From NCBI GenBank assembly GCA_021813585.1, contig JAKAJV010000037.1, positions 1 to 49,328 of the forward strand: 49,328 nt of DNA. The letters are read 5' to 3'. The translations under genes were made by a program, and so were the position numbers. This stretch comes from Bacteroidota bacterium (GTDB taxonomy: Bacteria; Bacteroidota; Ignavibacteria; Ignavibacteriales; Ignavibacteriaceae). A model generated the notes under the pieces. The model saw nothing but the letters and a program-made list of their open reading frames with translations. It made no database searches and had not been told where the DNA came from. Numbering within the stretch: position 1 is the stretch's first letter; every line of letters begins with the position of its first letter. Shown here in pieces: positions 10,549 through 20,698 of the stretch.

Positions 10549-11307
10549 TTATTTTTTTATGAACTTAAGAACCGCGTTAATAAAGGTAAGAGGATGGGGC
10601 GGACAGCCCGGGATGAACAAATCAACTTTAACTTCGTCCAGAAACTCGCGGTTAAGCTCAAGCGACCCTGCAAAGATTCCACCGCTGATCGAACAGGCAC
10701 CGAAAGCAATTACAAGCTTCGGAGTGCCGATGCTTCTGTACGCATCTTTTAAAGCCGGCGCCATATTTTTAGAAATGGGACCTGTTATTACTATCCCGTC
10801 GGCATGCCGGGGCGATGCTACAAAATCAATTCCGAATCTTCCCATATCAAAATTTACATTGCTGCAAGCGCCCAGCTCCATCTCGCAGCCGTTGCAGCCG
10901 CCGGCTGAGACCTGTCTTAACTTTAGAGAATGCCCGAACATCTTCTTAATTTCTTTTGCAGAATCAATTGCAGCCTGCTCATACTCCTTAAAACTTTTTC
11001 CGGATGTTATATTCAACAATTGTCTTTTAGAGCTGGCTGTCTTATGCTCGCTCGTAAATTTTATTGCGCCGGTTGTACAGGCTTTTTCGCACTCTCCGCA
11101 AAATATGCATCTGCCAAGATCAACTGAAAGAGGATTTATTTCAATTGCCCCGGTAGGACAAATGTCTTTACAATTTACGTAGCCCCCTTCGCATTTAGAT
11201 TCGTCAATTACCGGAAACCCTCTGTGAGTTGATAATAGTTCCGTGCCTCTAACATCGGGGATTGCCTGGTAACCGTGCTGTTTTCTTAGTTTAATTAAAT
11301 CCAACAT
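10549..11307 (-). CDS. Hydrogenase-like small subunit fused to 2x[4Fe-4S] ferredoxin domain
   Basis: Electron-transfer subunit of the hydrogenase-4-like complex, equivalent to HyfH plus HyfI (NuoI plus NuoB) in one 252-residue chain. The N-terminal half is a ferredoxin domain. The second motif is complete (Cys67, 70, 73, 77 in CIFCGECEKACTTGAI), while the first has only three cysteines (Cys39, 46, 50; ESKCEGGYVNCKDICP). The C-terminal half is NuoB-like with the ligands of the proximal cluster present: Cys138 and Cys141 (AGGCNGCEMEL), Cys205 (FGACSISGG) and Cys235 (PGCPPHP). CxxC rather than the CC pair of complex I marks it as hydrogenase-type. It is the last gene of the operon, 18 bp after the large subunit gene. 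Confidence 0.88.
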   Translation of the reverse strand: MLDLIKLRKQHGYQAIPDVRGTELLSTHRGFPVIDESKCEGGYVNCKDICPTGAIEINPLSVDLGRCIFCGECEKACTTGAIKFTSEHKTASSKRQLLNITSGKSFKEYEQAAIDSAKEIKKMFGHSLKLRQVSAGGCNGCEMELGACSNVNFDMGRFGIDFVASPRHADGIVITGPISKNMAPALKDAYRSIGTPKLVIAFGACSISGGIFAGSLELNREFLDEVKVDLFIPGCPPHPLTFINAVLKFIKK

Positions 11308-11325
11308 TTGATGCCTGCATAAAAT

Positions 11326-12813
11326 TTATAAATCAAAACCGCTGTAGGATAGGTTGAAGCTTTTATTACAAAGCGGGAAATCCGAGATACCTTCATTCCT
11401 AACCGCTAGGGAAAGAGCAAACCAATTATGGAATGAAGGGTCTTTTATTTTTACCCGGCTTAGCTTGCCGTCTTTGCCGGTAATTAAGACATAAGCTATT
11501 TCGCCGCGCCAGCCTTCGCAGAGCGAAACGGCAAATTTTTCTGCGTCGAGCTGTTTAACATCTTTTTTAATTTCCCCGGCAGTAAAATTTTCGAGCTGTT
11601 CTTTAATAATTTTTATCGACTGCTGAACTTCTATAAAGCGTATATAGGCGCGGGCAAACACATCGCCGGAGTTTAAGGTTAATTTATGGACGGGGAAAAA
11701 CTCATATCCTCCGGACGGATGGTCCGATCTTACATCAACTGCAAGCCCGCTTGCCCGTGCAGCCGGTCCAACCATGCCGATTTCCCTTGCGGTTTCTTTA
11801 CTAACAATACCGGTCTTTTCAAATCTTTCCAGAACCGATGCAGAAGAGAATAAGACTTCTGCGGCAAGAGTTGTTTCGTCATTTAAGCGGTCCATAGTCG
11901 AAATAATTTTACCTGCAAGCGCGGTAGAAATATCGAAATTAATTCCGCCAGCCGTAATCAATCCTCTTCCGAACCTGTTGCCGCAGAGCGCCATGGTAGT
12001 GTTTATTATTTTTGTCCGCAGCGCTCCGAATACAGAGCTGCCTGTTAAATATCCTACATCGGTCGAAAGCGCCGAAAGGTCGCCGAGGTGGACTGCGATC
12101 CTCTCAAGCTCAAGTGCAGATGTTCTTATCTGCTTTGCTCTTCTTGTTATATCCAGATTTGAAAGAGACTCGACCGCAGAGGCGAATGCACCGCTATGCC
12201 CAATTACAGAATCGCCCGCTACAGACTCAGCAAGTTTTAAAAGATAAGTCTGCCGTGCGTTATTTCTAACGAACAGTTCTTCTATTCCGCGGTGCTGGAA
12301 TCCCAGTTTGATTTCCAGCTGATAGATTTTTTCGCCGTGGCAGGAGAATCTAAAATGACCGGGTTCGATTACGCCCGCATGGATGGGACCGACACCGACT
12401 TCGTGCACGTCTTGGCCGCTCATGCCGAAGAACTCGTATTTTTCCTCCCGGCTGTTGATACCGGGAATTCCCTTTCTTACAGGCTTAAGCCATGGATGGC
12501 CTTCAGGCTTTATTCCAAACTGCTCGTATAATTCTCTTTCAAAAAGATGAGCGGAGGAAACTAGCGGAGTAATAGAACGGTAAGATTTATTGCCGTCGAA
12601 ATTTGAAGATGACACAAAGAGCTTCGATGAATTGTCATCTGCTAAAATTACATAGAGGGTAACTATATCCTTTTCCTCGTTCCCGAAAAATTGAACCAGC
12701 CGTTTACCGCTTCTTAACCCGCCGGCAATCTCCCCGGTTAAATCGTCAACATGCACGCGCGGAATATCTTTAAGAGATACGGATTGAAGGTTTTTTATTT
12801 CAAGCCAGTTCAT
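11326..12813 (-). CDS. Hydrogenase-4-like large subunit lacking the NiFe ligands (Ehr type)
   Basis: Homologue of HyfG/HycE, with a NuoC-like N-terminal part (about residues 1-125, ending FERELYEQFGI) fused to a NuoD/NiFe-type part (GPIHAGVIEPGHFRF at 142-156). In hydrogenases two CxxC motifs bind nickel-iron. Here the first is ESVAGDSVIGHS, with Ala199 and Ser202 where the ERVCGICGFxHS pattern has cysteines. The C-terminal motif is NLSYSGFDL, with Ser489 and Gly492 in place of the cysteines of DPCYSCTDR. All four ligands are therefore gone and H2 chemistry is very unlikely. Such subunits are known in the Ehr (energy-converting hydrogenase related) complexes, whose substrate is unsettled. Length is 495 residues, somewhat shorter than HycE. 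Confidence 0.9.
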   Translation of the reverse strand: MNWLEIKNLQSVSLKDIPRVHVDDLTGEIAGGLRSGKRLVQFFGNEEKDIVTLYVILADDNSSKLFVSSSNFDGNKSYRSITPLVSSAHLFERELYEQFGIKPEGHPWLKPVRKGIPGINSREEKYEFFGMSGQDVHEVGVGPIHAGVIEPGHFRFSCHGEKIYQLEIKLGFQHRGIEELFVRNNARQTYLLKLAESVAGDSVIGHSGAFASAVESLSNLDITRRAKQIRTSALELERIAVHLGDLSALSTDVGYLTGSSVFGALRTKIINTTMALCGNRFGRGLITAGGINFDISTALAGKIISTMDRLNDETTLAAEVLFSSASVLERFEKTGIVSKETAREIGMVGPAARASGLAVDVRSDHPSGGYEFFPVHKLTLNSGDVFARAYIRFIEVQQSIKIIKEQLENFTAGEIKKDVKQLDAEKFAVSLCEGWRGEIAYVLITGKDGKLSRVKIKDPSFHNWFALSLAVRNEGISDFPLCNKSFNLSYSGFDL

Positions 12814-12826
12814 ATTATAGACCTCA

Positions 12827-14263
12827 TTACCGGAGAAAATTAGCTGCGCTGTTAAGGAATGAATATATTTGCGGCGAAATATTTATTCCCACAATAAATA
12901 GGATAAAAAGCAAAACCATCTGCGGCGCATAAGCTGCAAATCCATTTTTATTTATTAAGTTTTTATCTGCCGGAGCTTCACCGAAAGCCATTTTAAATAC
13001 GGCGTTGGCCATACCAAATGCCACAATTACCAGAAACAGAAAGAATGGTACAGCAAGCCAGCTAAGGCCTTCCATCCAAAGCGCCTTTACTATAAGAAAT
13101 TTACTTAAGAATATAGGGAACGGCGGCATTCCTATTATTGCAAGCATAGAAACAATCCAGAGCCAGCCGGTACGGGAATCGCTCATTAATAAACCGGAGA
13201 CAGGCTCAATTTTTTTACTCTTGTGCAGATAAAGAATATTTCCCGATGTAAGAAACAGCGAAGTCTTTGATAGAGAGTGTGCCAGCACGTGAAGCATTAA
13301 TGCAAATACACCATACTTACCAAGGGCAATACCTATAAATAATATTCCCATGTTTTCGATTGAAGAATATGCCAGCATCCGTTTGTAATTCTTTATCCGA
13401 AGCATATACACGGCGCTTATCATTAACGATAAAAATCCTGTTAACAGGAAGAGGAAATCGGAAAAGCCTTCCAGGTGTGCGCTGATAAAAATTTTCTGTA
13501 CGCGCAATAATCCCAGCAAAGCGGAGTTTAAAAGCGTACCGGACAAAAGTGCCGATACCGGCGAAGGCGCCTCGGAATGCGCATCCGGAAGCCATGCATG
13601 TATTGGCGCTATGCCTATCTTCGTACCTAATCCTACAAAGATAAAAGCAAAGGAAACTTTTAACCAAAAAGGATTTATCTGCGAGGCCTTATTGTATAGG
13701 TCGGTAAAGAACAGCGAATCAATACTCCGGCTGCCTATTGTAAGAAGAATGATTCCGACAAAGGCCAGCGCAATACCCACCGAACATATGTAAATATATT
13801 TCCACGATGCCTCAAGCGAGGATTTTTTCTTTTCAAAATAGATAAGCAGGGCACTGGTTAAAGTTGTTGCCTCTACAAAAACCCACATTAAAGCCAGATG
13901 CGCCGCTAATATTACTCCTGCCATTGCAACAACAAAAAACTGAATCTCGGCTATGTATATCGATTCTTGTTTCAGAGTAAAGCTATGCGACTTAAAATAA
14001 AACAAGCTGTACACAGATACCGATGCAAAAACAAGCGTCATTACGGTAAAGAAGAACAGCCCGACTGAGTCAAACTGAAAGTACGGCATTAACCAATCGG
14101 GAAGTATGTACCATTCTATTTTCAAGTATTCGGCGAAAGCCGCCATGATGTAAATTAACGGCGGGGCTAATAATGCAATGCGACTGATTATCCTTTTAGG
14201 AAGAGCTAAAGCAATTACGGCTAATATTACGGGCGCAAAAAAAATCAGACTAATCATCCTCAA
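12827..14263 (-). CDS. HyfF-like antiporter membrane subunit
   Basis: Proton/sodium-translocating membrane subunit of the hydrogenase-like complex, related to HyfF, MrpD and NuoN/M. The 478 residues form about 14 membrane segments. The family signature LPDAHSEAPSPVSALLSG is present, with conserved charged residues in TM5-TM8 including VFVEATTL and the lysine/histidine regions (FVGLGTKIGIAPIHAWLP; LHVLAHSLSKTSLFLTSGN). Its stop codon is 13 bp before the large subunit gene, and its start overlaps the HyfE-like gene by 4 bp (ATGA), indicating translational coupling. A coupled ion pump role is inferred from the family. Confidence 0.9.
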   Translation of the reverse strand: MRMISLIFFAPVILAVIALALPKRIISRIALLAPPLIYIMAAFAEYLKIEWYILPDWLMPYFQFDSVGLFFFTVMTLVFASVSVYSLFYFKSHSFTLKQESIYIAEIQFFVVAMAGVILAAHLALMWVFVEATTLTSALLIYFEKKKSSLEASWKYIYICSVGIALAFVGIILLTIGSRSIDSLFFTDLYNKASQINPFWLKVSFAFIFVGLGTKIGIAPIHAWLPDAHSEAPSPVSALLSGTLLNSALLGLLRVQKIFISAHLEGFSDFLFLLTGFLSLMISAVYMLRIKNYKRMLAYSSIENMGILFIGIALGKYGVFALMLHVLAHSLSKTSLFLTSGNILYLHKSKKIEPVSGLLMSDSRTGWLWIVSMLAIIGMPPFPIFLSKFLIVKALWMEGLSWLAVPFFLFLVIVAFGMANAVFKMAFGEAPADKNLINKNGFAAYAPQMVLLFILFIVGINISPQIYSFLNSAANFLR

Positions 14264-14895
14264 TCCCTCAGTTCGGTTAATATATCTACATGGCTGCCGT
14301 CGTACATTTCCTGTATCTTGTTAAAGAAGATAACGAACAAATAAATTCCCACGAATAGATCCAGCAGCACGCCGATATTAACCAGCATCGGCATTTCATT
14401 AGCAACCGAAAGCGACAGCAGGAAGATCCCGTTCTCCAGTATCATGTAGCAAAGGATATGTGTGATTATTCTTTTTCGATTGACTATTAGGAACAAGCTT
14501 GCAACAATTAATACGAGCGACATTCCGAAGTACAAAGGCTTAATGCCGGCATTTGTTCTGGCAGCCCAAAATGCCGCAACGAATCCGAACATGAAAATTC
14601 CGCTTGCTATAAGAATGGAATAGAACTGGGAAATATACGGCTCAACCTCTCTTCCAATTTCGTTTTTCCTTATCACCCTTAGTAAGAAAACCGGTATGAA
14701 AACCGCCTTTATCAATAAAGTCTCAAACATCAGGAATCCTAGATTCAACCAATTTATTTTATGTATATCGGTTATTACCAGAAGGAAAAGAAAAACACCC
14801 TGCAAGGCCAGTGTTTTAACGTAAGATTCGATTCTGCTTACGGCAAAAACATACAGCACGCTTGTGCCCAAAAGAATAATCAGAATATTTGTCAT
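14260..14895 (-). CDS. HyfE-like small membrane subunit
   Basis: A 211-residue hydrophobic protein with about six membrane segments. It resembles HyfE and the NuoK-like part of group 4 hydrogenases, with the motif ITHILCYMILENGIFLLSLS followed by MPMLVNIGVLLDLFVG. HyfE-like subunits line the ion path between the membrane arm and the peripheral arm. The gene overlaps both neighbours by 4 bp (ATGA at each end), so the membrane subunits are probably made in fixed ratio. No HyfD homologue is present in this operon. Confidence 0.85.
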   Translation of the reverse strand: MTNILIILLGTSVLYVFAVSRIESYVKTLALQGVFLFLLVITDIHKINWLNLGFLMFETLLIKAVFIPVFLLRVIRKNEIGREVEPYISQFYSILIASGIFMFGFVAAFWAARTNAGIKPLYFGMSLVLIVASLFLIVNRKRIITHILCYMILENGIFLLSLSVANEMPMLVNIGVLLDLFVGIYLFVIFFNKIQEMYDGSHVDILTELRD

Positions 14896-15806
14896 TTAAC
14901 TCCTCTCAAAAAGAAAGCAATTACAGCAAAGGCCGTCAGCGAGAGCGCCGTCATTACGAAAATGAACTGAGGCACGTGGGACATCCTTGAACGTGCTATG
15001 AACGATTCAATCAAACCTATCGCTGTAAAAATCATTAATAAGATTAAGAAGAAGGATGCCATGACTAAAAGTAAATTAGGAAAAGCCGGCACAACCAAAT
15101 CGGATATCAGTATAGAAAGTACGGTCATCTTTAAGCCTGAAGAATAAAGAATAAAAGCCAGGTCCGGTCCTGAATAATCCAGTATCATAACTTCGTGGAT
15201 CATGGTCAATTCGAGATGGGTATTCGGGTCGTCAACCGGTATCCTGCTGCCTTCAACCAGAAGCATAATGAAAAGAGAAATAACCAACAGGATTTTTACC
15301 AGCACACTGTAGCCCGCGCTTACGCTTAATGAAGAAAAGATAACACTGAACGATGTTTGGCTTGTTAATAAGGCCAGAGAGCCGACTACAATAAAAAAGG
15401 CAGTCTCTACAATAGTGGAATATGTAGCTTCTCTGCTGGCGCCCATTCCTTCGAAGCTGCTTCCGGTATCCAGCGCCGCCAGCACCATAATAAATTTCGA
15501 GAATCCAAAAGCATATGCGAAGAGTACAAAATCCCCTGGGAAGCTGATTACGGAACCGTAAAATGGGAACGGGATTAACAATAAAGCAAAAACCGCCGAT
15601 GCAATGCTTATGGACGGGAATGCCTGAAATATAAATGAGGTTGTCCTGCTTATAACTTCGCCTTTGCGGATTAATTTCATAAAATCGTAATATGGCTGCA
15701 AAATAGGCGAGCCTTTTCTTCCCGCCCAGACGGCCTTTACTTTGTTTATAATGCCGAGAAAGAAAAACGGCGAGACTAAAATTACTATAACCAACAGCAG
15801 CTTCAT
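14892..15806 (-). CDS. HyfC/HycD-like (NuoH-like) membrane subunit
   Basis: The 304-residue NuoH-type subunit that anchors the peripheral electron-transfer arm to the membrane. It has about eight membrane helices and the conserved cytoplasmic loops of the family: VWAGRKGSPILQPYYDFMKL near the N-terminus and EGSRIPVDDPNTHLELTMIH (close to E. coli HycD), followed by EVMILDYSGPDLA. The acidic residues of these loops form the entry to the proton channel in complex I relatives. It lies 3 bp after the HyfB-like gene and overlaps the HyfE-like gene by 4 bp. Confidence 0.9.
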   Translation of the reverse strand: MKLLLVIVILVSPFFFLGIINKVKAVWAGRKGSPILQPYYDFMKLIRKGEVISRTTSFIFQAFPSISIASAVFALLLIPFPFYGSVISFPGDFVLFAYAFGFSKFIMVLAALDTGSSFEGMGASREATYSTIVETAFFIVVGSLALLTSQTSFSVIFSSLSVSAGYSVLVKILLVISLFIMLLVEGSRIPVDDPNTHLELTMIHEVMILDYSGPDLAFILYSSGLKMTVLSILISDLVVPAFPNLLLVMASFFLILLMIFTAIGLIESFIARSRMSHVPQFIFVMTALSLTAFAVIAFFLRGVK

Positions 15807-15809
15807 TTT

Positions 15810-17792
15810 TTAATTCACCCCCAATATCCATATAAGAAGGAAGACTAAAAATATCAGTCCGTAAATAATATACTGCTGAAGCCTGCCGCTTTGAATCCAC
15901 GAGAACAATTCAAAGAACCTATTAACAAATTTTATTACAGGCTGAATTAAAAATCTTTCCGAAAAATCCTGCGCATGGCTTTCCAAAGAAGCTTCCTTCG
16001 GGAAAAGAACAGGCTCTTTTAACAGGTTTATTTTCTGCGGAACCAATTCCGCAACCAGGTGCATAAACGGCTGGGCGTACGAGCTTCCGGTATATTGAAG
16101 CCTGCTGCTGGCTTCCTGGTACCCGCAGTCCCACGTTTTAAATACTGTTACTTCCTTCTTCCTTAAAAGAAGAGACCTGATGAGATAAAAGAAAAGTATT
16201 AACGAGCCGAAAATTATAATTGAGCCGGATAAAATCTGGAGATTCATTTTTACCTGATCAAACATAAATGAAGCATTGGAAGGCAGGAATTGTTTAACGG
16301 CATTCTCAAGAAGATAAACAGTTGCATACGGGAATAAACCTATCAGTATTATAATAATGGATAGAAACACCATCGGCAGCAGGAGGAATGAATCTTTATC
16401 TTCGCGGGTAATATGCAGTTCGGTTCTTGGCTGGCCTAGAAAAGCAATACCGAACAGCTTGGTAAAGCTTAAAAGAGCCATGGCACCGGTAAACGCCAAT
16501 CCGGAAATTCCTAAGACGGCAAAAATATTTAGAGAGAGGCTTTCAACTGAAAAGCCGTTTACTATTCCCAGATAAATTAAAAACTCGCTTACAAAGCCAC
16601 TGAATAACGGCAGGCCGCTTATTGCAACGGCGGCAATTAAAAATAAAAACGAAGTGCCCGGCAGAAATTTAATCAATCCCCCCAGCTTGTCAATATCCCT
16701 TGTATGAGTTTTTGAATAAACCACGCCCGTACCGTAGAACAAAACACTCTTGAATGTAAAATGGTTTACCACATGCAGCAGCGCGCCTAAAAAGCCAAGC
16801 AGTGCAATCATTGCATTGCCATACGCCAGGCCGATCATTCCAAGGCCGATGCCCATACCGATAATGCCGATGTTCTCGATACTGGAATATGCCAACAGCT
16901 TCTTCATATCTTTTTGAGAGACTGCATTGGCAATTCCGATAATGCCGGTTGCCAATGATACTGTAAAAATAATATATGCTAATTTTGGGTTCACCGGTCC
17001 GCTTAACAATATTATACGCAGAATACCGTAAATACCGGTTTTAATCATTACGCCGGACATAAGTGCAGAAACCCCCGTAGGAGCCGCAGGGTGTGCTTTA
17101 GGCAGCCAGGTATGCATTGGTACAAAGCCCGCCTTTGTGCCGAAACCGATAAAGAATAAAAGAAAGAGAACAGCAGATATATTTGTTGAACTGTTTAGCA
17201 CACTTCCGAAAGAAGAAAAATCCAATGAACCGGAAGCCGATGAGGTCCAGGCAAATGCGGCAATTAAAAACGCCGCGCCTACCTGCATAGCTGTAAAATA
17301 ATAGATGGCAGCCTTTTTAACTTCCTTTTTTTCATTCTCGAAACTTACGAGAAAAAAAGATGCAGCCGACATTACTTCCCACAGTACCATAAAAAGAATT
17401 GCATTCTGAGCTATAACTATTAGCAGCATTGCGGCAGTGAGAAGTCCGAGGAAAAAATAATACCCGGATAGCTCCGATTTTTTCCCGGAATATATCCTCA
17501 TGTAGCCGATTGAGTAGACGGCAGCTAGCAGAGTGCCTGCAGAACTAATTAAAATAAATACCGAAGCCAAAGGATCCATTCGGAGGAATGAAACTCCTAC
17601 GGGCTCGGACAGGCTGAGTCTGCATTCCAATTGTCCGCCGTTTAATAGAACTTTGAACGCTTCAGGAATAATTAAAAATTGAGCGACTGAGGAAAAAATT
17701 AAAAATATAGCGCCTTTTGTTTTTTCATTAAAGAAGACTGCGGCAATTCCTCCAGTAAAGAACAAAAGCGTCCCGGTTAAAATGTAATTCAT
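15810..17792 (-). CDS. HyfB-like antiporter membrane subunit
   Basis: Large (660-residue) NuoL/HyfB-type membrane subunit with about 15 or 16 helices. The signature LPKAHPAAPTGVSALMSG is present, with the flanking GFGTKAGFVPMHTW and the ALLHVVNHFTFKSVLF segment that holds channel histidine and lysine residues. The C-terminal extension (about residues 540-660) has a soluble stretch (WDCGYQEASSRLQYT) and a final helix, as in HyfB and HycC. Its ATG overlaps the stop codon of the upstream regulator by one base (TGATG). With the HyfF-like protein this gives the complex two antiporter-type modules, hence probable ion pumping. Confidence 0.9.
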   Translation of the reverse strand: MNYILTGTLLFFTGGIAAVFFNEKTKGAIFLIFSSVAQFLIIPEAFKVLLNGGQLECRLSLSEPVGVSFLRMDPLASVFILISSAGTLLAAVYSIGYMRIYSGKKSELSGYYFFLGLLTAAMLLIVIAQNAILFMVLWEVMSAASFFLVSFENEKKEVKKAAIYYFTAMQVGAAFLIAAFAWTSSASGSLDFSSFGSVLNSSTNISAVLFLLFFIGFGTKAGFVPMHTWLPKAHPAAPTGVSALMSGVMIKTGIYGILRIILLSGPVNPKLAYIIFTVSLATGIIGIANAVSQKDMKKLLAYSSIENIGIIGMGIGLGMIGLAYGNAMIALLGFLGALLHVVNHFTFKSVLFYGTGVVYSKTHTRDIDKLGGLIKFLPGTSFLFLIAAVAISGLPLFSGFVSEFLIYLGIVNGFSVESLSLNIFAVLGISGLAFTGAMALLSFTKLFGIAFLGQPRTELHITREDKDSFLLLPMVFLSIIIILIGLFPYATVYLLENAVKQFLPSNASFMFDQVKMNLQILSGSIIIFGSLILFFYLIRSLLLRKKEVTVFKTWDCGYQEASSRLQYTGSSYAQPFMHLVAELVPQKINLLKEPVLFPKEASLESHAQDFSERFLIQPVIKFVNRFFELFSWIQSGRLQQYIIYGLIFLVFLLIWILGVN

Positions 17793-18478
17793 CAGTTCGC
17801 TCTTCTCACATTCTGCCAGACAGCTTCTATGGCAACTACATAATTCAAAATCTCTTCTTTTGCCGAATGCTTTTTCAACATCTCTAAGAATTTTTTATCG
17901 CGGCTTAAATAGGAAATTTTGGAGAGAACATCCAGGTGCATACGCGGACTGGCAGTTAAAAGAATAAACAGCGTATGGACAGGCTGTTTATCCAGCGCAC
18001 CAAAATTAGCCGGGCTGGACAAATAGCATACGGAAACATTGGCTTTGTTAACATCAATTACTATAGGATTGCGCGGGTGAGGGATTGCTATACCGTTCCC
18101 GATTGCCGTCGGCATCAGCTCCTCGCGCCTTATAAGCGCAGTTAAAATTTCTTCCTTGGTTAAGCTTCCGGGAGTATTAATTTTATCAACCGCATCTCTT
18201 AATAAATCTTTTATGTTATCGGTTCCTTCAAGCATTACTGTGCCGCCTCTTTCCAGCAGCCTGGAAAAGCTTTCCGAGTTTTGCATTACGGCCAAATTTA
18301 TAAGAGACGATGAAAGCTCAATCTTGTTGCTTATTATCCATTCATTTATTTCTGCCCGGTTAAAACGGTACTGGTGGTTTATCTTATAGCATGGAATTTT
18401 CTTGTCCCTTATCCACCGGTAGACTGTCTTTTCCGAAACTTGAAGCAGATCGACTATATCTTTAATCTTTAATTCCAT
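17792..18478 (-). CDS. HTH-PTS EIIA fusion regulator heading the operon
   Basis: Predicted DNA-binding regulator. The ATG at 18478 (MELKIKDIVDLLQVS) is preferred over the in-frame ATG at 18529 because the excisionase/MerR-type helix-turn-helix (VSEKTVYRWIRDKKIPCYKI) begins right after it. A linker leads to a PTS EIIA type 2 (PtsN/fructose-like) domain with the phosphorylatable histidine in GNGIAIPHPRNP (residue 134 from this start). No PTS permease or EI/HPr is in the window, so phosphorylation would come from a nitrogen-type PTS or Hpr kinase elsewhere. It is one base upstream of the HyfB-like gene in the same transcript, so it probably controls the complex in response to carbon or energy state. 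Domain calls are firm; the role is inferred. Confidence 0.85.
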   Translation of the reverse strand: MELKIKDIVDLLQVSEKTVYRWIRDKKIPCYKINHQYRFNRAEINEWIISNKIELSSSLINLAVMQNSESFSRLLERGGTVMLEGTDNIKDLLRDAVDKINTPGSLTKEEILTALIRREELMPTAIGNGIAIPHPRNPIVIDVNKANVSVCYLSSPANFGALDKQPVHTLFILLTASPRMHLDVLSKISYLSRDKKFLEMLKKHSAKEEILNYVVAIEAVWQNVRRAN

Positions 18479-18629
18479 TACTTTTAATTTTTTAGACGTC
18501 AAACATATAATTTTTTCAGAAAAGTCCAAATATTTTATCTAATTATCTAAAATGTCCTAATATGTCCAGCTCTTGCTTTCATTTTATTTTTTGTATAATT
18601 TTTATAAAAGAACTTATGCGGGGATTAGC

Positions 18630-19910
18630 ATGCGAAGATTAGCTTTTCTCTTATTGTTGTTATCGGTTTTAACCTTAAAGGTTAATAGTCAAACACCCAA
18701 GGTAATTATTATTACCCTAGACGGAGCGATAAATCCCGCCGCTTCAGATTATATACAATACGGAATTAAACAAGCAGTAAAAGATAACGCGGAGTGTCTG
18801 GTCTTGATGCTCAATACTCCGGGCGGACTTCTGGAATCTACAAGGACAATAGTCTCAGACATCCTCAGGTCGCCGGTGCCAGTTATAGTTTATGTGGCTC
18901 CTCCCGGTGCTAGGGCTGCATCGGCAGGAGTTTTTGTTACTCTTGCTGCTAACATAGCAGCAATGGCTCCGGGCACCAACATTGGCGCCGCTCATCCGGT
19001 TACATTACAGGGCCAGATGGATTCCACTATGGCCGAAAAGGTTACGAACGATGCTGCTGCCTTTATAAGAACCATAAGTGAAAAGAGAGACAGGAATGTG
19101 AAATGGGCGGAAGAGGCGGTAAGAAAAAGCGTCTCGATTACTGAAACCGAAGCGCTCAACCTGAATGTAATTGACCTGATAGCTACTAATCTACACGACC
19201 TGCTTGAAAAAATAGACGGCAGGATAATAAAAACGGAAAGCGGTATTTCTACTCTACATACAAAGAATGCCCAATTAGTTTATCTGGATATGAGCTTTCA
19301 GCAGAAATTGCTAAGCATACTTAGCGACCCTAATATAGCTTACATTTTGATGATGCTTGGTTTCTACGGCTTGCTTTTCGAGCTTTATAATCCGGGCTCT
19401 ATTTTTCCCGGCGTTGTGGGAGTAATTAGTTTGGTTCTAGCTTTTTATTCCTTCCACACACTGCCGGTAAATTATGCCGGTATAATTTTAATAGTTTTCA
19501 GTCTTATACTTTTTATCCTGGAGATAAAAATCGTGAGTCACGGCTTGTTAACAATCGGCGGGGTTATTTGTTTAATCCTCGGTTCACTTATGCTGCTTAA
19601 TCCTGTCTCTTCCTTTGATGTTCTTCAGATATCGTGGGAAGTGATTGCTTTGGTAGTAATTCTTACGGTTCTTTTTTTCTCATTCGCAATCGGCTTCGGT
19701 ATAAAGGCTCAAAGAAGAAAGCCGACTACCGGACTTGAAGGATTAATAAACGAAACCGGAGTGACAATAACCGAACTGCGTCCTGAAGGAAGCGTTAAAG
19801 TACACGGCGAGATATGGAAAGCCGAAAGCTCCGAAGGGACTATACCGGCAGGAAATAAAATAATAGTTACAGGAATTTCTAACCTAAAATTAAAAGTAAA
19901 AAGAACCTGA
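18630..19910 (+). CDS. NfeD family membrane serine protease
   Basis: Membrane-bound ClpP-class protease of the NfeD/1510 family, usually partnered with a stomatin-like protein. The start at 18630 (19 codons inside the longest frame) gives a signal sequence (MRRLAFLLLLLSVLTLKV). The protease domain has LNTPGGLLEST, the nucleophile in GARAASAGVF (Ser98) and a likely general base Lys137 (MAEKVTNDAA). Four or five membrane helices follow (about 230-370), then a C-terminal OB-fold NfeD domain (TGLEGLINETGVTIT...). It is 26 bp upstream of the slipin gene, the classical NfeD-slipin pair. The pair is implicated in membrane quality control in other organisms; the substrate here is unknown. Confidence 0.9.
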   Translation: MRRLAFLLLLLSVLTLKVNSQTPKVIIITLDGAINPAASDYIQYGIKQAVKDNAECLVLMLNTPGGLLESTRTIVSDILRSPVPVIVYVAPPGARAASAGVFVTLAANIAAMAPGTNIGAAHPVTLQGQMDSTMAEKVTNDAAAFIRTISEKRDRNVKWAEEAVRKSVSITETEALNLNVIDLIATNLHDLLEKIDGRIIKTESGISTLHTKNAQLVYLDMSFQQKLLSILSDPNIAYILMMLGFYGLLFELYNPGSIFPGVVGVISLVLAFYSFHTLPVNYAGIILIVFSLILFILEIKIVSHGLLTIGGVICLILGSLMLLNPVSSFDVLQISWEVIALVVILTVLFFSFAIGFGIKAQRRKPTTGLEGLINETGVTITELRPEGSVKVHGEIWKAESSEGTIPAGNKIIVTGISNLKLKVKRT

Positions 19911-19936
19911 AGCCATTTCGGGTTTAAGGAGGAAAT

Positions 19937-20698
19937 ATGCAGGAACTTTCTATCTATTTGATCATTCTAATTCTCTTCGTAATATTTATCCTGTCCAATT
20001 CGATTAAGATTCTCCGCGAATACGAACGCGGAGTTATTTTTAGGCTTGGAAGACTAATAAATTCCAAGGGACCGGGAATCATCTTTTTAATCCCGATAGT
20101 TGACCGGATGGTGAAGATAAGCCTCCGGACTGTTGTAATGGATGTGCCTCCGCAGGATATAATTACAAAAGATAATGTTTCGCTAAAAGTAAATGCGGTT
20201 GTTTACTTTAGAGTAGTGCAGGCCGAGAAAGCCGTGGTTGAGGTTGCAGATTATCTTTTTGCTACTTCTCAGATCTCTCAAACCACGCTGCGCAGTATTT
20301 TGGGGCAATCGCAGCTGGATGAAATACTGGCTGAGCGAGATAAGATAAACCGGGAGCTGCAGCAAATTATAGATGAACAGACCGAGCCGTGGGGAGTTAA
20401 AGTAACTGCTGTTGAGGTTAAGCAGGTTGATCTGCCGATTGAGATGCAGCGCGCAATTGCAATACAAGCCCAGGCCGAAAGAGAGAGACGCGCAAAAATT
20501 ATTCATGCGGAAGGCGAGTTCCAGGCCAGCCAGAAGCTCTCCGAAGCCGCGGAGGTAATCCAGAAGTTCCCCGTTGCAATTCAGTTAAGGTTTTTGCAGA
20601 CCCTTACGGAAATTTCATCGGATAAAAATTCGACCATCATCTTTCCTGTACCTATAGACATGCTAGCGCCTTTTATAGAGAAGCTTAAAAAAGATTAA
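19937..20698 (+). CDS. Slipin / stomatin-like SPFH protein
   Basis: Membrane-anchored SPFH (band 7) scaffold protein of the slipin group. The 253 residues comprise one N-terminal hydrophobic segment (about 5-25), the SPFH domain ([42 protein letters not shown]-type core), and a charged helical region ([20 protein letters not shown]) that oligomerises. A strong ribosome site (AAGGAGG) precedes the ATG at 19937. It follows the NfeD protease by 26 bp and is probably a binding partner or substrate of it. A hairpin terminator follows the stop. Confidence 0.93.

Follow-up and report, generated by a model that had tools for sequence, protein, structure and literature searches.

A hydrogenase-4-like operon without nickel ligands in an Ignavibacteriaceae bacterium: an Ehr complex headed by a gene for an HTH-EIIA regulator

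What might a membrane complex built like E. coli formate hydrogenlyase (FHL) do when its catalytic subunit holds none of the four cysteines that bind nickel? The question is raised by a stretch of 49,328 nucleotides (the window; GenBank assembly GCA_021813585.1, contig JAKAJV010000037.1) from a Bacteroidota bacterium of the family Ignavibacteriaceae, whose genome of 4.54 Mb is assembled in 142 contigs. Seven tightly packed, codirectional genes run on its minus strand from 18478 to 10549 and encode, in this order, a regulator with HTH_17 (helix-turn-helix) and PTS_EIIA_2 (phosphotransferase system, PTS) domains, HyfB-, HyfC-, HyfE- and HyfF-like subunits, a NuoC/D-like large subunit and a ferredoxin-NuoB-like small subunit. 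The operon encodes an Ehr (energy-converting, or Ech, hydrogenase-related) complex, a relative of Hyc/Hyf; on balance we lean towards the reading that this complex would be blind to H2, would translocate ions under control of the PTS and would possess a usable electron wire. An earlier note on this DNA had described HyfB-, C-, E-, F-, G- and fused H/I-like subunits, which correspond to the six subunit genes; it had missed the HTH-EIIA regulator, a putative operator, the retained proton relay and the position of the C-terminus at the maturation cut site. The genes and sites concerned are:

17792..18478, minus strand: HTH_17 + PTS_EIIA_2 regulator, first gene, 228 residues; ATG at 18478, with the mechanical open reading frame extending to 18529
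15810..17792, minus strand: HyfB-like antiporter subunit, 660 residues, with E139, K220, K251, K348 and E403
14892..15806, minus strand: HyfC/NuoH-like membrane anchor, 304 residues, with conserved acidic E134, E185, D192, D193, E199, E205 and D210
14260..14895, minus strand: HyfE-like membrane subunit, 211 residues
12827..14263, minus strand: HyfF-like antiporter subunit, 478 residues, with E131, K215, K333 and K388
11326..12813, minus strand: EhrL-like large subunit, a NuoC/NuoD fusion, 495 residues, ending ...SYSGFDL
10549..11307, minus strand: ferredoxin-NuoB fusion small subunit, 252 residues
12208..12219, minus strand: codons A199-S202, the former first CxxC
11338..11349, minus strand: codons S489-G492, the former second CxxC
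12364..12366, minus strand: codon E150, the retained Glu of the beta1-beta2 loop (= HycE E193)
18553..18567, minus strand: putative operator GGACA-N5-GGACA, a direct repeat with a 10-bp period that lies 75-89 bp ahead of the regulator's ATG

Alignment of the large subunit to HycE (chain 7z0s_E of the solved FHL, and E. coli hycE) places Ala199, Ser202, Ser489 and Gly492 at C241, C244, C531 and C534, with the flanks aligned as the earlier note had claimed. The comparison covered 110 large subunits: that of the window, 29 from its order and 80 from other genome contigs, with at least three contigs counted twice (L053/L007, L075/L024 and L084/L025). An intact CxxC pair was found in none of them, so the cysteine loss is no sequencing error; such an error was one of the two outcomes that the earlier note had named as fatal to its claim. 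Position 202 is Thr, Ser or Ala, and G200 and D201 are present, in 110/110. Position 199 is Cys in 14 sequences, in none of them together with its partner. For the C-terminal columns 108 sequences remain (L018 and L115 are truncated), and in all of these N483, K484, S489, Y490, G492, D494 and L495 are invariant. The pocket signature that replaces the nickel ligands reads E-S/T-x-A-G-D-S/T ... N-K-S-F-x-L-S-Y-x-G-x-D-L-end. Both motifs (CGIC/DPCYCC) and tails of 32-35 residues are retained in five group-4 NiFe enzymes that belong to the window's order. In a set of loci of Gastranaerophilales/Melainabacteria type (L057-L062, L066, L067, L076, L077, L093 and L111, two of them titled only as bacterium), all twelve carry Cys at 199, a lone cysteine resembling one of the nickel site, and none was found to have an HTH-EIIA gene upstream.

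The C-terminus is equally uniform. The stop codon directly follows L495 in all 108 untruncated genes, and L495 aligns both with HycE R537, beyond which HycE has a tail of 32 residues, and with the last residue of NuoCD. We take the maturation cut of HycE to fall after R537, so that the encoded chain stops where the hydrogenase is trimmed, as NuoCD does; the protease-removed tail by which group 4 NiFe hydrogenases are recognized is absent from the window subunit. In the window's own genome, the search for hyp and protease genes that the earlier note had proposed turned up a HypC-HypD pair (the remaining Hyp genes were not searched); neither a NiFe hydrogenase (PF00374) nor the maturation protease HycI had a match, nor did the zinc finger of HypF. 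Ehr was found in 37 of 116 relatives, the own genome included; 30 of these 37 genomes have neither a NiFe enzyme above the cut-off nor HycI, and seven have both. The orphan hypC-hypD pair of the own genome (L142:8652-9740; G000:C122:25423-26721) is followed by a PAS histidine kinase.

Residues that serve proton movement are kept. The accessible part of PMC9474812 gives proton-relay roles for HycE E193, H284, E437, R478 and D529 in E. coli FHL. The first four are retained as E150 (110/110), H242 (109/110), E395 (109/109 with a letter) and R436 (108/108), and D529 corresponds to N487, a column with 83 Asn, 24 Asp and one Ser. In the HyfB- and HyfF-like subunits, the Glu and Lys residues that align with those of NuoL/M/N and HyfB/F, and that we presume to be the key antiporter residues, are likewise kept. 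Only two Proton_antipo_M proteins lie in the operon, which bears out the two antiporter modules and the missing HyfD of the earlier note. Alignment thus shows the nickel ligands gone and the proton-relay residues and both antiporter modules kept.

Placement among the Ehr complexes, which the earlier note had proposed together with the alignment and tree behind it, agrees with the phylogeny, the ligand loss and the antiporter-like subunits. Two trees were built from alignments that sampled 34 Ehr rows and omitted the four ligand columns, the second also without odd rows; in both, Ehr forms one clade (96/95 in the first tree, 99/97 when one very long odd row is included, and 100/100 in the second). 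HycE/HyfG stands next to it (94/91 and 87/93), and a topology uniting all cysteine-bearing rows was not rejected (p-AU, approximately unbiased test, 0.425), so the sister-group link between Ehr and HycE/HyfG is not secure. The Geomonas loci L088 and L089 fall inside the clade in a tree set without G. sulfurreducens itself; Geomonas is a relative of Geobacter. An AlphaFold model of the large subunit has a mean pLDDT of 91.5, with low confidence at residues 146-149 and in the last stretch, and its best solved match is HycE (7z0s_E; TM 0.89 by query length). The window complex is a relative of group 4 NiFe hydrogenases and complex I with no Ni/Fe-binding residues and with Mrp-antiporter-like subunits, and all six subunits were matched in loci from many phyla. 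Both the Ehr family and its lack of nickel ligands have been described before (PMC6349859, PMC10284858, PMC12342949 and PMC7304191, in the parts accessible), and the same parts of the first three give the function as unknown.

Other large subunits with altered motifs were seen beside these. At L144:6533-7819 (G008:C146) lies another nickel-less hydrogenase-like large subunit with ESVCGNFSFSH and the end SFFADAAR, which adjoins HyfC- and HyfF-like genes and in the tree neighbours Ehr with a very long branch; G008:C129 and G001:C3, seen as matches only, are possibly similar. At L143:6428-7531 (G107:C25) a NuoD-like protein has one Cys per motif (CRICVPEPD and GVCPPEIER); after it come a DHO_dh protein and a Pyr_redox_2 flavoprotein that carries Fer4 domains.

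The small subunit of the window has all four cysteines of the proximal cluster (C138, C141, C205 and C235), as the earlier note had said. Ferredoxin clusters were assigned by what we take to be the usual 2[4Fe-4S] pattern: the second (cluster II) has C50, C67, C70 and C73, and the first is incomplete, with C39, C46 and C77, and Tyr43 where close relatives have a further Cys. All four cysteines of cluster II occur in 102 of 105 small subunits, the other three (L099, L107 and L114) being short or fused frames; among those 102, 69 have the first cluster complete and 13 have none of it. All four proximal cysteines are present in 102 of 111 small subunits, a count that omits L059, L099, L107 and L114 (truncated or fused; the last three retain the proximal four) and may include duplicates between collections. 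As judged from its residues, the window thus has the cysteines for an iron-sulfur path from cluster II through the proximal cluster to the pocket. Since an electron can in principle reach this pocket, a redox-linked ion pump is the first choice for the window.

The regulator gene, which overlaps hyfB by one base (TGATG), encodes an EIIA fold with a histidine (His134 within GNGIAIPHPR) that, from the EIIA family, we take to be the phospho-acceptor; this histidine is present in 66/66 sequences, the window, weaker matches and L099 included. The best structural match of the regulator model (pLDDT 79.5, pTM 0.64) is PtsN. Upstream sequence of 6 kb is available for 84 loci; with at least 100 bits required for a full-length match, 53 of these have a regulator there on the operon's strand, and eight more have a weaker match (L080 is counted by the stronger of its two matches). 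Fifty of the 55 full-length regulators with a hyfB match end within 200 bases of hyfB. The full set of 108 loci, of which 70 include 6 kb of downstream sequence, has one regulator downstream (L099) and none on the opposite strand. Full matches span Bacteroidota, Ignavibacteriota, Planctomycetota, Verrucomicrobiota, Lentisphaerota, Spirochaetota, Myxococcota, Thermodesulfobacteriota, Fibrobacterota, Omnitrophota, Zixibacteria and, by L080, Acidobacteriota. Across the neighbourhoods of 99 loci, the regulator is the sole non-subunit cluster common to more than 10; the next cluster occurs in 10 loci; its example is on the strand opposite the operon, and it resembles a reading-frame shadow.

The same association holds by genome. 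A full-length regulator (at least 266 bits; the next match has 96 bits and covers the EIIA part only) is present in 32 of the 116 relatives. Thirty-one of them belong to the 37 Ehr genomes, and in the remaining one, G002, the contig stops within hyfB; no relative was found to have the regulator without Ehr. Six Ehr genomes lack it: G007, G010 and G011 have operons cut by contig ends, and G034, G054 and G073 are the genomes whose Ehr small subunit lacks the proximal cysteines (the G034 contig has 505 bases of sequence ahead of hyfB). Co-occurrence with Enzyme I was discarded as evidence because 109 of the 116 genomes, the own one included, have it.

Upstream of the regulator stands the GGACA repeat, spotted by eye and by k-mer count in 12 close upstream regions, which are no independent test of it. 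With three more added to these 12, there are 15 close loci, of which 13 agree with the repeat in at least 9 of its 10 letters; in 300 shuffles of each of the 13 the observed score was reached in at most 1.3%. Among 43 further loci, which were not shuffled, 14 score at least 9 and seven are exact; the repeat also precedes the regulator in other phyla. The window has a single site with at least 9/10 matches, the chance mean for the same size being 1.06. The case for an operator rests on the repeat's place and recurrence, from which we infer that the site may be bound. A wider GGACA regulon was considered and dropped: 16 genomes hold 19 exact sites (32 in the reversed control), of which six precede a regulator and the 13 others are at chance level. 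At 18573-20698 a divergent NfeD-type protease gene and a putatively stomatin-like reading frame start beside the putative operator.

These elements can be joined into a course of events for the window. A low-potential carrier, at a guess probably ferredoxin, would feed cluster II, and the electron would move via the proximal cluster to a small acceptor in the pocket, or would cause a redox-dependent change in pocket protonation. Proton transfer through Glu150 and the HyfC acidic chain would then drive HyfB and HyfF, so that the complex would translocate ions. The phosphorylation state of EIIA, and through it the phosphoenolpyruvate (PEP)-dependent phosphotransferase chain, would set expression through the GGACA repeat of the operon's own promoter, and the regulator thereby suggests a tie between the Ehr complex and the PEP/carbon state of the cell.

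Several observations weigh against this reading. No redox partner gene recurs beside the Ehr operon in the neighbour clusters of the 99 loci, and the formate dehydrogenase partner proposed for other phyla (PMC6349859, in its accessible part) was set aside, as a neighbour of the operon, on the same count. No regulator lies upstream in 23 of the 84 loci with 6 kb upstream, among them nine of nine such Melainabacteria loci, and the weaker matches lie mostly behind hyfB, not before it. The repeat is missing from L047 and L056, two of the 15 close loci, and 29 of the 43 further loci score below 9 of 10. Above all, two to four proximal cysteines are lost in nine of the 111 small subunits, and in the eight of these loci that have a large subunit the 23 pocket columns keep the family residues, with the exception of R353K in two. 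Since the pocket and antiporter residues stay intact where the proximal cysteines are lost, electron delivery may not be essential in every Ehr. The earlier note's "redox ion pump" without an H2 site is therefore upheld in its second half, the nickel ligands being gone; a redox pump is plausible for the window and is not established for the Ehr family.

The lost forms feed the chief competitor, in which Ehr is an ion antiporter that is either non-redox or redox-gated, its cap a regulatory and proton-entry module and its wire at most a discardable sensor. Mrp antiporters offer the precedent of redox-free transport by the same module. In the Ignavibacteriales/Bacteroidota four proximal cysteines are lost in L145, L146, L198 and L116 and three in L150 and L132; the planctomycete L100 has lost four, and the Opitutae L113 and L095 three and two. 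These losses fall in three places on a quick tree, whose starred branches force three changes and which is less trustworthy than a careful one. Members without the proximal cysteines keep pocket and membrane arm, as an antiporter predicts: their antiporter Glu/Lys columns are intact wherever aligned (L116 lacks B and C and has a truncated F; L113 has gaps in B). The pair L145/L146, with dN/dS of 0.111/1.87 for the small and 0.124/1.60 for the large subunit, is clearly under purifying selection, by ratios that are rough, dS above 1.3 being near saturation; a redox-type pair gave 0.030/0.52 and 0.029/0.34. G034, G054 and G073 each carry one Ehr small subunit, of the lost form. G012 has both kinds, with and without the proximal cysteines (G012:C22 and G012:C23). 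In a draw of 395 genomes from the window's phylum, 15 have an Ehr small subunit and only G073 the lost form, which makes it a minority form. Conservation of the four proximal cysteines in 102/111 and of cluster II in 102/105 would be unexpected if the wire were wholly useless; moreover, the lost forms may have arisen by secondary specialisation, the regulator being absent from the three relatives that carry no other form, and a cluster with non-cysteine ligands could persist, particularly in forms that retain one or two cysteines. We hold the antiporter to be a substantial possibility, though the less probable one for this operon. Comparably tentative is an evolutionary version, in which Ehr, as a branch of the complex I superfamily, has left redox catalysis or is leaving it: nickel would have been lost once at the family base and the proximal cluster about three times later, with strong selection maintained on the pocket and the membrane arm, leaving the pocket as a proton gate or ligand switch, the wire as a dispensable sensor and the whole as a PTS-controlled antiporter.

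The remaining explanations fare worse. That Ehr reduces quinone like complex I draws on the common superfamily, on the chain end shared with NuoCD and on the quinone that occupies the equivalent pocket of complex I (accessible part of PMC9474812), but the positions of the quinone ligands, Nqo4 H38 and Y87 in the part of PMC7684303 available, are Ile149 and Gly200 in 110/110 sequences, and the hydrogenase-type Glu150 is kept instead; we consider it improbable. A 2026 Geobacter paper (PMC13194489, in its accessible part) calls the complex already nonfunctional and reports that two ehr genes acquired missense mutations in prolonged growth on an electrode, and the metal site is indeed lost, some members lacking iron-sulfur cysteines as well. 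Six subunits matched across many phyla, an invariant pocket and low dN/dS nevertheless argue against a dead hydrogenase relic, as does the report that Geobacter contains more of the Ehr subunits when grown on formate than under hydrogen-containing conditions (PMC7894505, in its accessible part). The claim of nonfunctionality does not fit the conservation seen in these alignments, and a relic is hardly credible. A cryptic NiFe hydrogenase with other ligands, to which the orphan HypC-HypD pair might point, was rejected as next to inconceivable: there is no ligand pair and no trimmable tail, and the search of the own genome yielded neither HycI nor the HypF zinc finger.

For the window, we keep to the redox-linked, ion-translocating Ehr complex. 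Ehr complexes are widespread and without established function, and relatives naturally lacking the proximal cysteines offer a test of whether the membrane arm works without electron delivery to the pocket; a complex-I-like arm doing so would bear on electron-ion coupling in complex I. The open-access full texts on Ehr that were searched, with most subscription papers outside them, do not mention the HTH-EIIA head gene, the repeat or the losses of proximal cysteines in the parts accessible.

Among known systems, the Ehr complexes of Geobacter and Nitrospira share with the window the group-4-like large subunit without CxxC motifs and the antiporter-like subunits, and nothing sets the window apart from them in a comparison that left the G. 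sulfurreducens operon outside. With E. coli hydrogenase-3/-4 (Hyc/Hyf) it shares homologues of HyfB, C, E, F, G, H and I and the proton-relay residues, but it differs in having no nickel ligands, no C-terminal tail and no HyfA or HyfD in the operon, and in the fusion of H and I. Respiratory complex I (NuoB/C/D/H/L/M/N) has the same fold, the NuoCD chain end and the antiporter Glu/Lys residues, whereas the window has the hydrogenase-type proximal CxxC spacing, Glu for the quinone His and no NADH module in the operon. The sulfane sulfur reductase of Pyrococcus, MBS, is likewise derived from a hydrogenase and has lost nickel cysteines; according to the accessible part of PMC7684303, it keeps two of the four, lacks the Glu of Ehr and coordinates its proximal cluster by three cysteines. 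The window, by contrast, has four proximal cysteines and no nickel cysteine, which places it outside MBS.

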